This document shows positions 13,687 through 41,642 of a DNA stretch of 64,000 nucleotides, piece after piece; position 1 is the stretch's first letter; each line of letters begins with the position of its first letter. The notes below the pieces were generated by a model. That model did not search any database. It was not told where the DNA came from and was given only the letters and a program-made list of their open reading frames with translations. Origin of the DNA: Anaerosacchariphilus polymeriproducens (GTDB taxonomy: Bacteria; Bacillota; Clostridia; Lachnospirales; Lachnospiraceae); assembly GCF_003363435.1 (NCBI RefSeq), contig NZ_QRCT01000020.1, positions 1 to 64,000 on the forward strand, written 5' to 3'. Made by a program: the position numbers and the translations under genes.

Positions 13687-14104
13687 ATTTAATAATACGA
13701 ATTCCCCAGCCTATGTAGACAATATTTTTTATAAAGCAATTTAATATAATTATAAAAAGTGCAATCCATAAATAAATATCTTTGTATTTCATACCTATTT
13801 TGATTTTTCCTTTAGATACCAGCTGAATGGTATTTGTGACCATATAAATCATATAAATCGCTGCTGTATAAGGAACTACCGGATGATAAATAAAAGACTG
13901 TAGAATTTCTCCTTTCATTAAACTCATTACTGCTCTTGTTCCACCACAACCAGGACAATACAATCCAAATAAGCTATGTATAAGACATGGTGCCGTAATA
14001 GATGATAACGAGATTGAAAATACTTCCCCTAAAAGGAATGCTATTAAAACAATTACAAATAATATCCATCCGGTAATATATAATCCTTTATTTTCTGAAT
14101 CCAT
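13685..14104 (-). CDS. DUF2752 membrane protein
   Basis: A 139-aa protein with about three membrane helices and the DUF2752 hallmark CPGCGGTRA (50-58) right after FGLY. The start is the ATG with AAGGGGG six bases upstream; an upstream GTG gives only eight more residues and has no site. The conserved CxxC could bind metal or form a disulfide at the membrane surface, but the function is unknown. DUF2752 genes often sit beside DUF4190 or TM2 genes, as here. Confidence 0.88.
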   Translation of the reverse strand: MDSENKGLYITGWILFVIVLIAFLLGEVFSISLSSITAPCLIHSLFGLYCPGCGGTRAVMSLMKGEILQSFIYHPVVPYTAAIYMIYMVTNTIQLVSKGKIKIGMKYKDIYLWIALFIIILNCFIKNIVYIGWGIRIIK

Positions 14105-14157
14105 CCGTTTCCCCCTTTTTCTTTCCACAATATATCATATCAAAAAATCAAATAAGG

Positions 14158-14320
14158 GGCAATAGACTTGTGACTGAATTTGTGATATAATTTATACAAT
14201 TCAAATAACGATTGACTAAAAACAATACTGCTTTTTATTTAACCAATCAGCTTCCTACTGATTCAAATACATAATTTTATAAACACAAAAGTATCTGTAT
14301 ATTTTATAGATACTTTTTTA
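14158..14320 (+). ncRNA. candidate small RNA
   Basis: On the plus strand a TATAAT near 14187, with a weak TAGACT -35 17 bp upstream, is followed by about 100 nt without an open frame. These contain a small hairpin (AATCAG/CTGATT, about 14245-14265) and then a terminator-like stem AAAAGTATCT/AGATACTTTT with T6 (14287-14320). I recognise no Rfam family. It could equally be untranslated debris. Confidence 0.3.
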
Positions 14321-14510
14321 TTTTAAAGAATTTTCTTTTCAATTTATTATTAATATTATTTTAATTTATTTGTAAGATATTCTTAATATTGTTCGGTTCC
14401 TTTTTTCTACAATTTTAGCTATATTTAGAGTAATAATGCTAATACAAACTCTCTTTACCGTTTTAATAATTCTAAAATGTAATATTTTATATTTTTTTCA
14501 GATTCAGGTA

Positions 14511-14552
14511 TTGACATTATGTTACGTAAATGTTAAATTTATATTACGCAAA
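14511..14552 (+). promoter_or_regulatory. promoter with direct-repeat operator candidate
   Basis: TTGACA (14511-14516), a 17-bp spacer and TAAATT (14534-14539) make a plausible promoter. The 9-mer TTACGTAAA (14522-14530) is repeated as TTACGCAAA (14544-14552), 22 bp apart (two helix turns), which suggests a regulator bound on one face of the DNA. Confidence 0.5.
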
Positions 14553-14957
14553 CATATTGTTTATAGTAGTATTTATAACAAAATTTAACATTTGTCATGC
14601 AGAGAATATGTTTTTATTAATGTAATTCTTACAAACGGAGGTGCTACATTATCTTAAAACACATTGATAAAGACATTAGTAAATAACATACTTATCTATA
14701 TTCAATTATGCTTTGATTACCTAACATAAATAATCTTATTACAAAAAGGAGGAATTGATAAAAAGAATACTTTTAGAAACAAGGAAAACGTCTTGATTTT
14801 AAGATAGACCACAATTCATTCTATAAATATACCAAATCATTTGATATAGATCAAATACAAAATCACAAAACAACAATTCAAAATAAAGAACCAAAACGCC
14901 TATGGCACCCACTTTTCCAGTTCCTCTTTCACCGAGGGGAACTGGTCTTTTTATTTT
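14546..14957 (+). other. transcribed region with ribosome sites but no start codon
   Basis: Between the promoter at 14511 and a strong terminator at 14957 there is about 400 nt with two good Shine-Dalgarno sequences (GGAGG at 14638-14642 and AGGAGG at 14747-14752). Each is followed at a normal distance by a near-ATG codon (ATC, ATA) and a frame of only 12-13 codons. No known structured RNA was recognised. It may be a leader, a regulatory RNA or the remains of small genes. Confidence 0.35.
14917..14957 (+). terminator. strong intrinsic terminator
   Basis: CCAGTTCCTC pairs with GAGGGGAACTGG around a 7-nt loop, followed by TCTTTTTATTTT. It separates the upstream transcript from the hydrolase promoter that starts 28 bp later. 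Confidence 0.88.
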
Positions 14958-14984
14958 ATAGAATATACTTTAATATTTCTTAAG

Positions 14985-15013
14985 TTGACATATTATTGCA
15001 CAACTATTAAAAT
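14985..15013 (+). promoter_or_regulatory. promoter of the polyester-hydrolase-like gene
   Basis: Perfect TTGACA (14985-14990), a 17-bp spacer and TAAAAT (15008-15013). The 5' leader to the ATG at 15192 is about 170 nt long and contains another AAGGAGG (about 15095) not followed by a start codon. Confidence 0.8.
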
Positions 15014-15191
15014 TATGTTACCTTAAAGTATTGTTTTGGCAATATATTAAGTTTTTTTAATTAATTTTGTCAATTGATACTAAATTAATAAGATAAGGAG
15101 GGTTTTACACGGGGTATTTGAAAACAGTATTCTTAATTGACATCGCTAATAACAACTATTTTAAGGAATATATTTAGTAGGAGAGAATTAT

Positions 15192-16139
15192 ATGAATAAG
15201 GAGAAGTCATCTTTCGATCAAACAGCAAAAATCACAACAAGAAGCAAATCTATCTTTAAAACTATCTTTACTTACTTATTAGTATTGGCATTTATCACAA
15301 CAATTTTTCCTATGAATGCCTTTGCTAATAGCCCTGCAATCATCCGCAATGAAGAAGCACCGGGAAAATATGCCGGAAACGGCCCATTTTCTTATAATTC
15401 TTATCGCCTGCCTCTTCTATCTGTATATGGTACCGGAGGTGCAACGGTTTATTATCCAACAAGCGGAACAGCACCTTATTCCGGGCTTGTTTATTGTCCT
15501 CCCTATACAGCCAAACAATCAGCATTGGCAGCTTGGGGGCCGTTTTTCGCATCACACGGTATTATATTAGTAACTTTTGACACATTAACTCCACTAGACC
15601 CTGTCTCTTTGAGAGCTCTGCAGCAAAGAACCGTTCTGAATGCATTAAAAACAGAAAATTCACGTTTGAACAGTCCTCTCTATCAAAAAGTCGCTACGGA
15701 TAGAATCGGAGCAATGGGTTGGTCCATGGGTGGTGGAGCTACTTGGATTAATTCTGCAGAATATTCAGGACTCAAAACAGCTATGACAATAGCGGGGCAT
15801 AATTTATCATCCACGAACTTAAATTCAAAAGGTTACAATACAAAATGCCCTACTTTAATTATGAATGGTGCTATGGATACTACAGGTCTTGGAGGCTTGG
15901 GACAATCTAATGGAGTTTATAAAAATATTCCTGCAAATGTACCAAAAGTACTATATGAAGTTGCATCAGCAGGCCATTTAAATTGGACTTCGCCTATTTC
16001 TGCATCTAATGATGTGGCTGCAATCGCACTTGCATTTCAGAAAACTTATCTGGATGGAGACTCCCGTTGGTTAGCTTTTATTACAAGGCCCAATAGTAAT
16101 GTTTCTATCTGGGAAACTTCCAATTTAATGAATCCATAA
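15192..16139 (+). CDS. secreted PETase/cutinase-like polyester hydrolase
   Basis: A 315-aa alpha/beta hydrolase with a signal peptide (positive start, helix about 22-40, cleavage likely after AFA at 45). The nucleophile elbow is GWSMGGG (176-182) with catalytic Ser178; Asp229 (MNGAMD) and His262 (SAGHLN) complete the triad, and Tyr105 with Met179 form the oxyanion hole. Order and wording (TVYYPT, YTAKQS, WGPFFASHGI, LQQR, SPLY-KV) closely follow Ideonella sakaiensis PETase and bacterial cutinases, recalled from memory. Trp177 matches the PETase Trp159, where classical cutinases have His. The clamp Trp185 is replaced by His203, and the two PETase disulfides are absent. It should cleave esters of polymers or lipids outside the cell; the substrate is unknown. 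It has its own promoter, an AGGAG site and a terminator, and stands alone on the plus strand. Confidence 0.88.
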   Translation: MNKEKSSFDQTAKITTRSKSIFKTIFTYLLVLAFITTIFPMNAFANSPAIIRNEEAPGKYAGNGPFSYNSYRLPLLSVYGTGGATVYYPTSGTAPYSGLVYCPPYTAKQSALAAWGPFFASHGIILVTFDTLTPLDPVSLRALQQRTVLNALKTENSRLNSPLYQKVATDRIGAMGWSMGGGATWINSAEYSGLKTAMTIAGHNLSSTNLNSKGYNTKCPTLIMNGAMDTTGLGGLGQSNGVYKNIPANVPKVLYEVASAGHLNWTSPISASNDVAAIALAFQKTYLDGDSRWLAFITRPNSNVSIWETSNLMNP

Positions 16140-16144
16140 AAAAC

Positions 16145-16174
16145 GGGGTAAGTTTTTCAACTTACCCCTCTTTA
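16145..16174. terminator. terminator between hydrolase and lysC
   Basis: A perfect 10-bp stem GGGGTAAGTT/AACTTACCCC with a 4-nt loop lies between the two convergent genes. It is followed by CTCTTT on the plus strand and AAAAACC on the other side (which reads as a U-run on the minus strand). Confidence 0.85.
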
Positions 16175-39734: not shown

Positions 39735-41642
39735 TTAAAGTAAGGATGCTATTTTATTTGCAACATTCTCCAATTCCCAATATGTATGGGAAGACATAAT
39801 TGTAATTCTTAGGATTGCTTCCCCTTTCTTTACCGTTGGATACCGAATAGCCGAAATAAAATATCCCATTTTTAACAACTTTTCTGATATCTCCATTGCT
39901 TTTTCCTCATTTCCTATAACAACGGGAACGATAGCACTTTTCGCTTCTACTTCAATTCCCTTCTTCTTTAAACACTTTTCAAAAAAAGTAATATTTTCTT
40001 GTAATCTGCGGACTCTTTTTGGATCTTTTTTTATAATCTCAACTGCTTTAATAGATGCAGCTATCGTTACCGGAGATAACGCTGTTGTATAAATAAACCC
40101 TCTTGCCTTATTTTTCAAATATTCAATCAACATTTGATTTCCACAAACAAATCCACCTTCACTTCCTATGGCTTTACTTAATGTACCCATTAATATATCA
40201 GGCTTTTGATTCAATCCATAATATTCTACAACGCCTCTACCGGTTTTCCCAATAACGCCTAAGGTATGTGCTTCATCCACCATAGAAAATAATCCGTATT
40301 GATCCGCAATCCTTAAAAGCTCCGGTAAATGAACAATATCTCCACCCATACTAAAAACTGCGTCGCTGACAATCATTCCTTTTTTGCCTATATACTGTTT
40401 TACTTTCTCCTCTAAATCCCTCATATCATTATGTTTATAGATTACTAATTCAGCTTTACTAAGTCTGCATCCATCTATAATACTTGCATGATTAAGTTCA
40501 TCACTAAATATAATATCTTCACTTGAACATAATGTAGAAATCGTAGCAAGATTAGCTATATAACCACTGTTAAAAACCAATGCTGCTTCTGTACCCAAAA
40601 AATCTGATAATACCTGCTCAAGTTTTTCATGAATCTTTGTATTCCCTGTGGTTAGTCTAGATCCCCCTGAACCGGTTCCATATTGTTCTAATATTTTTTT
40701 TGCATATTCATTAATCGCTTTTTCATTTGCCAAGTCCAGATAACTATTTGAAGATAGCATTAACATATCTTGATTATTTAAGGAAATATATTTATTTTGT
40801 GCAGAACTTATTGTTTTCATTTTTCTATATAGATTACAATCTTTCAGTTGTTCCAACTCATTATCAATTTCTTGCCACTTCTTATCTACCGACTCCTTTC
40901 GACTGTCTTTCAATTCTACAATATTATCTACTAAAACATATTGTTTTTCTAAAAAGTTAATTGTTTTATATATCTCATCTTTATCACCATCATAGAGAAA
41001 AATCCTGCCGCCTTTATCTGAACCGGCTTTTTTCATATTCGTAATTCTGACATAACCAAATTGTTGAGAAGCTACATAACCTGTAACATAATCCGGATCA
41101 TCCGAAACACAAATCTCCCCAATTATATTAGGAGCATTGGCAACCTTAGTAGCTAACACAATTGCCTCTTTGTAATGATTTTTTTGAATCGCATTAGATA
41201 AGAATTGTACTCCGGAGTCCATATTGGTAGCTCTTATTCCTCTTTCTTTATCCGGCTCTAATCTTTCTAATGTATTGATATCCAAAATTACTGCTCCTCT
41301 AAGCGTATCTACCTTGTCAAATATTTTCAAAATTTCTTTTCCTTTTGAAATTCCAAGAAGCTCAAGCAGTTCTAAAACTTTTTGCCTTCCATCTTCATAA
41401 CTGTCTGTTTCAACTGTCCTCACTTTCAATGATTCAAGTCTGATAATTTTCTCTTCCCTCACTTCTTCCATTTTTAAATTTATATAATCCGGTTTCCCTT
41501 TAGAATGTTTCATTGCCCTGCTTATTAATTGTTTCGAACAGTCTATTATTTGCTCATCCATAATAATTCTTTCTGCACCAGATATATGTTTATTAAACTC
41601 TCCATCTTTTTTACTTGCCCTCATTTTTATACTATATAACAT
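39735..41642 (-). CDS. fused 6-carboxyhexanoate-CoA ligase / 8-amino-7-oxononanoate synthase (BioW-BioF)
   Basis: A single 635-aa protein joins two biotin enzymes. Residues 1-255 are BioW, which makes pimeloyl-CoA from pimelate, ATP and CoA: YSIKMRAS (3-10), HISGAERI (19-26), RGIRATNMD (134-142) and KAGSDKGGRIF (205-215). Residues about 258-635 are BioF, a PLP enzyme that condenses pimeloyl-CoA with alanine: YGTGSGGSRLTTGN (321-334), VDEAHTLGVIG (455-465) and PLP Lys490 in GTLSKAIGSEGG. Fusion would hand pimeloyl-CoA directly to BioF. It is first in the operon, right after a BirA operator. No pimelate source (BioI, BioC/BioH) or bioB is in the window. Confidence 0.95.
   Translation of the reverse strand: MLYSIKMRASKKDGEFNKHISGAERIIMDEQIIDCSKQLISRAMKHSKGKPDYINLKMEEVREEKIIRLESLKVRTVETDSYEDGRQKVLELLELLGISKGKEILKIFDKVDTLRGAVILDINTLERLEPDKERGIRATNMDSGVQFLSNAIQKNHYKEAIVLATKVANAPNIIGEICVSDDPDYVTGYVASQQFGYVRITNMKKAGSDKGGRIFLYDGDKDEIYKTINFLEKQYVLVDNIVELKDSRKESVDKKWQEIDNELEQLKDCNLYRKMKTISSAQNKYISLNNQDMLMLSSNSYLDLANEKAINEYAKKILEQYGTGSGGSRLTTGNTKIHEKLEQVLSDFLGTEAALVFNSGYIANLATISTLCSSEDIIFSDELNHASIIDGCRLSKAELVIYKHNDMRDLEEKVKQYIGKKGMIVSDAVFSMGGDIVHLPELLRIADQYGLFSMVDEAHTLGVIGKTGRGVVEYYGLNQKPDILMGTLSKAIGSEGGFVCGNQMLIEYLKNKARGFIYTTALSPVTIAASIKAVEIIKKDPKRVRRLQENITFFEKCLKKKGIEVEAKSAIVPVVIGNEEKAMEISEKLLKMGYFISAIRYPTVKKGEAILRITIMSSHTYWELENVANKIASLL

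Follow-up and report, generated by a model that had tools for sequence, protein, structure and literature searches.

A PETase-like hydrolase of Anaerosacchariphilus polymeriproducens belongs to a distinct, apparently uncharacterised clade of family PF12740

A gene found in Anaerosacchariphilus polymeriproducens raises the question of what a secreted enzyme resembling the PETase of Ideonella sakaiensis (IsPETase) hydrolyses when the clamp tryptophan of the latter is replaced, and of whether this replacement has anything to do with life without oxygen. The gene lies in a stretch of 64,000 nucleotides (contig NZ_QRCT01000020.1, positions 1 to 64,000), here called the window, and a preliminary description had presented its product as a PETase-like polyester hydrolase of an anaerobe with a different clamp. 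It occupies positions 15192..16139 on the + strand and encodes a PETase-like alpha/beta hydrolase (PF12740) of 315 aa counted from an ATG, as indicated by the list of open reading frames, Pfam and fold comparison. A ribosome binding site, GGAGAG (15180..15185, +), is located 6 nt 5' of this ATG, and a bidirectional terminator-like hairpin (16145..16168) separates the gene from that of an aspartokinase.

Upstream of the gene there is an AT-rich region of about 1 kb (14129-15191) that has no ORF of 60 aa and includes several promoter-like matches. The best of them, TTGACA-17-TAAAAT (14985..15013, +), is a candidate promoter by consensus match only, and a weak one, given that the region holds 22 promoter-like matches against 13.3 expected (sd 4.2). 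Also in this region is a terminator-like hairpin (14917-14945) that no listed gene closely precedes on that strand. The 211-nt stretch 14985-15195, which runs from the candidate promoter as far as the start codon, folds better than all 200 shuffled sequences (z -3.4); its structure includes a long stem, the 3' arm of which is located just ahead of the start codon. The shorter stretch 15060-15200 folds no better than shuffles (z 1.5), and no RNA family of Rfam was matched in 14100-15300.

The N-terminus of the translation, read by eye, has a basic n-region, followed by a hydrophobic core and the residues A-F-A. Thus, residues 1-46 (15192..15329, +) are a candidate Sec signal peptide, with a putative cleavage site after AFA; in the AlphaFold2 model, pLDDT is below 50 at residues 39-57. 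Cys102 and Cys219 are the only cysteines of the whole protein, and they could form a disulfide. Both are present in six of the 11 members of the clade described below, Cys102 alone in three (L030, L032, L033), neither in two (L063, L028), and Cys219 alone in none. The proteins from Desulfatitalea (L031:8019-8957) and from a Myxococcota genome (L032:780-1979) have lipobox-like signal peptides, with Cys31 in both, followed by additional cysteines near the N-terminus, which suggests that they may be anchored in the membrane.

Membership in the PETase/cutinase family, as proposed initially, was borne out by sequence and structure comparisons. The Pfam model PF12740 (PETase, PET hydrolase-like) matches the window protein at about 153 bits, against a gathering cut-off of 28 (E 1e-44), and all 11 clade members match it. 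A phmmer search of the PDB found 178 distinct sequences at E 0.001; among the best 60 of these, a PET hydrolase chain comes first (E 1.7e-34) and a PBS(A) depolymerase fifth. An AlphaFold2 model built from 18 sequences (mean pLDDT 84.5) had an IsPETase chain as its top Foldseek match (E 8.8e-24), and VIA-align superposed it on IsPETase chains with Z of about 36 and rmsd of 1.8-2.1 Å over 250-256 residues. The sequence blocks singled out in the preliminary description (TVYYPT, YTAKQS, WGPFFASHGI, SPLYQKV, GWSMGGG) are all found in ORF 15192-16139, and the fold match, together with the aligned invariant columns, predicts the alpha/beta hydrolase fold with a Ser-Asp-His triad that is proper to PF12740.

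The possibility that a dienelactone hydrolase, an acyl-peptidase or another alpha/beta hydrolase has been misread as PETase-like has to be weighed here. The dienelactone hydrolase model PF01738 touches residues 147-231 (E 0.0011) and reaches E 0.001 or better in two of the 11 clade members; moreover, all 1000 chains aligned by VIA-align have Z of 8 or more, so the fold as such is common to many alpha/beta hydrolases. However, PF01738 scores 19 bits, under its cut-off of 21, while the PETase model exceeds its own by far, and the best 50 of the 1000 VIA-align rows are PET/polyester hydrolases or cutinases, apart from one titled only 'a hydrolase mutant'; since most of these rows are IsPETase variants, they represent few independent proteins. 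The best matches are therefore PET hydrolases and not the two enzyme kinds that would have spoken against the initial proposal, and a misreading of this sort has next to no likelihood.

The catalytic residues were mapped by alignment to IsPETase chain 6qgc, within an alignment of 25 rows. Ser178, the nucleophile, with the neighbouring Met179 (15723..15728, +), Asp229, the catalytic acid (15876..15878, +), and His262 (15975..15977, +) correspond to S160, M161, D206 and H237 of IsPETase, and Tyr105, an oxyanion and clamp residue (15504..15506, +), to Y87. The triad and the oxyanion pair Tyr105/Met179 were thus correctly identified beforehand, and superposition of the triad holds as far as the alignment and the overall predicted fold indicate. 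Ser178, Met179, Asp229 and His262 are invariant in the 24 counted rows, the left-out remote row L064 having Lys for Met, and the position of Tyr105 holds Tyr in eight clade rows, Phe in two and Leu in one. With the catalytic machinery complete, ester hydrolysis is well supported as the predicted activity. The tryptophan before the nucleophile (Trp177, W159 of IsPETase) is present as described, but it is not unusual, since 21 of 25 aligned rows have it (the exceptions being L024 with His, L025 with Tyr, L052 with Phe and L064 with Tyr), and it is consequently no mark of IsPETase.

The substrate cleft departs from that of IsPETase. The clamp tryptophan W185 is replaced by His203 (15798..15800, +), and both disulfides are missing, because C203, C239, C273 and C289 have all been replaced (by G226, N264, T298 and N314), again in agreement with the preliminary description. 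In IsPETase, W185 shifts its conformation thanks to S214 and I218, positions at which other PET hydrolases have His and Phe respectively, according to PMC10080609 in its available part. In the window protein this Trp185/Ser214/Ile218 unit is replaced whole by His203/Gln238/Val242, and the clade shares the change, with His203 and Gln238 in 11 of 11 rows and Val242 in ten (Ala in L033). Gln238, at the position of S214, belongs to an L-G-G-x-x-Q-S loop (residues 233-239; 15888..15908, +) that lies 3' of the catalytic Asp and is one residue longer than its IsPETase counterpart; L, G, G, Q and S are each found in every clade row. Two tryptophans complete the picture, Trp185 in window numbering (15744..15746, +; L167 of IsPETase) and Trp265 (15984..15986, +; A240 of IsPETase), three residues after the catalytic His; both are present in 11 of 11 clade rows, the former, like His203, in none of the 14 others and the latter in none of 13 references. 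The exchange of Trp for His comes with Gln238, Trp265, Trp185 and the LGGxxQS loop throughout the clade, a point on which the preliminary description was silent, and we infer from the alignment that the substrate platform may have been rebuilt as a unit.

The relatives on which these counts depend were obtained by scanning a genome collection with two peptide patterns, so that relatives lacking these patterns would be missed. The scan gave 28 loci, nine of close relatives (42-65% identity to the window protein) and 19 of the Bacteroidota type, eight of which were taken into the tree of 25 rows; L063, a second paralogue from a Pseudomonadales MAG, was added to the rows beside the window protein. 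In this tree the window protein falls within a separate clade of 11 sequences (support 99/96), on a branch apart from IsPETase and the cutinases and from the Bacteroidota rows. Its members are, besides the window protein, those of Clostridium manihotivorum (L034), Clostridium sp. (L026), Syntrophothermus (L027), a Syntrophomonadaceae genome (L029), Pseudomonadales (L030, L063), Teredinibacter (L028), Desulfatitalea (L031) and Myxococcota (L032, L033), the window protein pairing with the two Clostridium rows (99/99). The clade is still one branch (98/93) when 12 trait columns and the long rows L064 and L025 are removed. A remote PF12740 row, L064, is placed next to it, weakly supported (83/76), on a very long branch. 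A profile of the clade run against PDB chains gave 190.7 bits at best, for a PET hydrolase, and no member-like score, the window protein itself reaching 428 bits with profile A3, which contains it. The clade is a distinct and, it appears, uncharacterised subfamily of the known family PF12740.

Eight residues are found in all 11 clade rows and in none of 13 references: Val138, Trp185, Gly202, His203, Leu233, Gly234, Gln238 and Trp265. Cleft segments hold seven of them, and 50 of the 252 remaining columns (Fisher p 1.2e-4). If L064 is counted as a 14th reference, six are left, since this row shares Val138 and Trp265, and five of the six lie in the cleft against 52 of 254 columns (p 0.0022). Both p values are indicative only, because the cleft segments were picked by IsPETase numbering after the alignment had been seen. 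Trp265 as a residue strictly of the clade's own was ruled out by its equivalent in L064. In Desulfatitalea alkaliphila (G1295), beside the clade member, five PF12740 matches at 61-88 bits were observed, some in tandem, and one weaker; two of these proteins were read, and both have GYSKGG at the nucleophile, and the tryptophan of L064 stands at the position of Trp265.

The idea of an anaerobe member with a different clamp held in part. The clamp is indeed different and the host is likely an anaerobe, judging from its genome: no match to the heme-copper oxidase family PF00115 was found in it (a control search matched in eight of 14 genomes), and it encodes two class III ribonucleotide reductases, although the control search showed enzymes of this class in facultative species too, E. 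coli among them. The clamp as a trait of anaerobes did not stand, since His is found in all 11 clade rows, those of gammaproteobacteria included. Teredinibacter and the Pseudomonadales are oxygen-breathing hosts, and an anaerobe-specific clamp was ruled out by the presence of His in Teredinibacter and in the two paralogues of the Pseudomonadales MAG. His203 and the other fixed residues are consequently a feature of the clade.

Taken together, the set formed by His203, Gln238 and the loop, and the tree, lead us to consider it quite probable that the window protein is a secreted serine carboxylesterase of PF12740, from a distinct subfamily with a rebuilt cleft, acting on a substrate different from that of IsPETase. 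The protein would be exported through the Sec system, and Ser178 would attack the ester by the usual acyl-enzyme route, with His262 and Asp229 relaying the proton and, by homology, the backbone amides of Tyr105 and Met179 stabilising the oxyanion. The substrate would be bound in a cleft rebuilt with His203/Gln238/Val242, the longer loop after Asp229 and Trp265 beside the catalytic His. It could be a natural extracellular ester, whether plant cutin-like, polyhydroxyalkanoate-like or a soluble acyl ester; which of these it is can only be guessed. Soft aliphatic polyesters could plausibly be hydrolysed through promiscuity, and PET is a less likely substrate.

A narrower form of this reading, an esterase of lipids or soluble short-chain acyl esters with no polymer activity, is possible although doubtful. 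Several of the clade hosts, such as Syntrophomonadaceae and, as its strain name suggests, Desulfatitalea strain M08but, are fatty-acid or butyrate users, which fits with it. So does the opinion expressed in PMC8767016, in its available part, that the related PET27 and PET30 are short-chain fatty-acid esterases with promiscuity. Nevertheless, secretion and the PETase fold are no less suited to a polymer or to a surface substrate.

The opposite reading, that of a true polyester hydrolase with PET among its substrates, whose clamp would be formed by Tyr105 and another partner (His203 or Trp265), draws on the fact that PET hydrolases, together with a PBS(A) depolymerase, are its nearest neighbours in sequence and fold. 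In addition, HaloPETase1 degrades PET without the canonical clamp (PMC12442448, available part), and PET30, with Phe-Met-Tyr, hydrolyses it weakly (PMC8767016, available part). However, PMC8767016 mentions inactive members of this family as well, and its available part gives no enzyme with Tyr-Met-His as binding residues. The motifs of the M5-PETases are likewise lacking in the window protein, which has GGGA, PPY and DGDSRWLAFIT instead of GGGG after Ser, [PG]G[YF] and DxDxRxxxFxC, patterns written as regular expressions from the wording of PMC12224614 that may differ from those of the paper itself. According to the available part of the latter, only the enzymes with M5 motifs hydrolysed PET among 11 ocean enzymes that were made, those of M1-M4 being inactive when tested. 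Finally, the NCBIfam model for the BHET hydrolase BdeA (NF051441) gives 119.3 bits against a curated cut-off of 520. As for a two-enzyme PET-using system, in which MHETase accompanies PETase, the tannase family PF07519 had no match in the genome, the control search likewise matching in none of 14 genomes. A true polyester hydrolase is, on balance, unlikely, though not negligibly so.

Nor does the protein fall into PETase types I, II or III. The available part of PMC12442448 assigns disulfides and an aromatic clamp to types I and II, and to type III a box of sequence GHSQG. The GWSMG box of type II is present (residues 176-180), but the two conserved disulfides of this type are absent, with G/N/T/N at C203/C239/C273/C289, and of the aromatic clamp (Tyr/Phe plus Trp) only Tyr105 is kept. 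The extended active-site loop is shared by length only, equal to that of IsPETase after the catalytic His and three residues longer than in the type I-like L024. Compared with type I and the bacterial cutinases (GHSMG, one disulfide, no extended loop), the window protein has GWSMG, Thr and Asn at the positions of C273 and C289 and the longer loop; it also lacks the GHSQG box of type III. Some enzymes active on PET likewise fall outside the published types and motifs. A more far-reaching proposal, which we hold to be rather improbable, would make the clade a further type of polyester hydrolase, in which His203 replaces the mobile Trp185 of IsPETase and Trp265 binds the polymer, for the anoxic depolymerisation of natural or synthetic polyesters; that Trp265 takes over the stacking is its working hypothesis. 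If true, this moved aromatic platform would bear on polyester breakdown under anoxia in digesters, sediments and plant-degrading communities.

Returning to the preferred reading, a carboxylesterase with a substrate of its own, one Pseudomonadales MAG (G1294) has, besides the clade members L030 and L063, a type II-like PETase (L057, 381 bits), a combination that suggests a division of substrates if the bin is clean; a mixed bin is possible, because the three PF12740 genes lie on three contigs. In the same MAG, a fourth PF12740 match at 78 bits and two weaker ones were observed.

The surroundings of the gene do not reveal a substrate. It stands isolated in a housekeeping region, flanked by a DUF2752 gene and that of the aspartokinase, with genes for Tex, phosphoglycerate mutase and homoserine dehydrogenase (scanned) and for SecA nearby, aspartokinase and SecA having been named by reading of the sequence. 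No operon or functional partner was found when neighbours of the clade loci were inspected by eye and 10 proteins, four of them from relatives, were scanned. The neighbours, judged by eye, differ between the Clostridium, Syntrophomonadaceae, gammaproteobacterial and Desulfatitalea loci, so that gene context gives no substrate. An AraC-type regulator is encoded upstream in both Clostridium loci (scanned in L034, by likeness in L026), whose clade proteins are 95% identical to each other. Elsewhere in the window, on the - strand, 39735-41642 encodes a protein of 635 aa in which BioW (6-carboxyhexanoate-CoA ligase, 6e-81) is fused to a class I/II aminotransferase domain that may be BioF-like; the adjoining genes are those for an AAA_26 (BioD-like) protein and a class-III aminotransferase (BioA-like), and the whole looks like a biotin cluster that includes this fused enzyme.

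The distribution of the gene, counted on genomes that are samples of larger groups, is narrow. At E 1e-20 or better, PF12740 has a match in one of 392 genomes sampled from the order, namely the own genome, and in two of 398 sampled from the phylum, the own genome included. With profile A3 at 1e-30, the own genome is again the single match in 391 sampled from its class, and there are two of 63, both of one genus, in the class of G510. In the own family, PF12740 matches at 0.001 appear in 44 of 120 genomes, the own included, and 28 of 120 exceed the Pfam cut-off; the best score after that of the window protein is 46.9 bits, and the own genome has one further, weak match (19.9 bits). The gene is rare but not absent, as the named Clostridium genomes carry a clade member. 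That the gene is foreign to this genome through contamination of the assembly could be suspected from its being the only strong PF12740 match among the genomes sampled of the order; but it lies inside a contig, is flanked by housekeeping genes and has like codon usage and GC3, and the adjoining aspartokinase shares 75-82% identity with its counterparts in family relatives, all of which makes contamination extremely improbable.

The gene was probably acquired by horizontal transfer, as an older gain. Its GC content (0.394) is the highest of 50 ORFs (mean 0.341, sd 0.027; window 0.335), while its GC3 and codon usage are ordinary; with codon usage ordinary and GC only moderately high, transfer, if any, was not recent. 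No PETase-like gene was found beside that of aspartokinase at the aspartokinase loci of 16 relatives, where ORFs were identified visually by their 60 N-terminal residues, one locus (L079) ending soon after aspartokinase; 26 genomes were looked at, nine of which gave no match and contribute no locus. No match to the gene was obtained in the phages searched, five stretches of viral contigs matched a peptide pattern without encoding a relative, and the five plasmid matches are all below 36% identity. The Bacillota rows of the clade form one branch with support of 65/9 in the tree without trait columns. Vertical descent with heavy loss is possible, as the tree does not reject a single Bacillota branch.

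PET hydrolases are classed by a few cleft residues, and this clade swaps that set together while keeping the catalytic machinery. This makes it a natural experiment on the role of the Trp185/Ser214/Ile218 unit, and it supplies anaerobic and marine sequences, with no close structure among the PDB chains searched, for testing polyester breakdown by anaerobes. Should its members be inactive on polyesters, they would be of use to PETase mining as negatives, because all 11 are labelled 'PETase' by Pfam. Among the listed matches of the open-licence literature, supplements aside, titles and the first lines of abstracts pointed to no publication dealing with a clade member or with this set of residues, although large screens may hold unnamed members.

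Among known systems, IsPETase and the type IIb enzymes (Ideonella sakaiensis; Piscinibacter gummiphilus, L023) share with the window protein the fold, the triad, the Tyr/Met oxyanion pair, GWSMG and the length of the loop after His. At about 30-33% identity, however, the window protein lacks W185, S214, I218 and the C203-C239 and C273-C289 bridges, and has the LGGxxQS loop, Trp265 and GGGA for GGGG after Ser. Its nearest relatives, from Clostridium manihotivorum CT4 (L034) and Clostridium sp. C8-1-8 (L026), are 65% identical to it, with all eight clade-fixed residues and a hydrophobic, signal-peptide-like N-terminus, but in another gene neighbourhood. The Bacteroidota esterases akin to PET27 and PET30 (7pzj) have in common with it PF12740, mostly GWSMG (seven of eight rows) and no bridge beside the active site, yet they form a branch of their own (100/99), and their binding residues are Phe-Met-Trp/Tyr/Ala, with a C-terminal PorC sorting domain, according to the available part of PMC8767016. 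The type III enzymes (HaloPETase1 and the P. mendocina cutinase) are, like the window protein, devoid of the canonical pi-stacking clamp, but have GHSQG and Thr at the position of Y87, where the window protein has GWSMG and Tyr105 (PMC12442448, available part). As for anaerobes, the available part of PMC11782994 describes Thb, a polyester hydrolase from an anaerobic Thermoanaerobacterales bacterium that is 90% identical to PHL7 and 60% to IsPETase, and by those figures outside the clade, and cites esterases of Clostridium hathewayi and C. botulinum as polyester hydrolases from anaerobes. The Lipase Family 1.5 polyesterases described in PMC12616515 (available part), a paper in which Syntrophomonadaceae are mentioned, are unrelated to cutinase-type enzymes. 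Polyester hydrolases from anaerobes are thus already in print, and what is new here is the clade and its fixed residue set.
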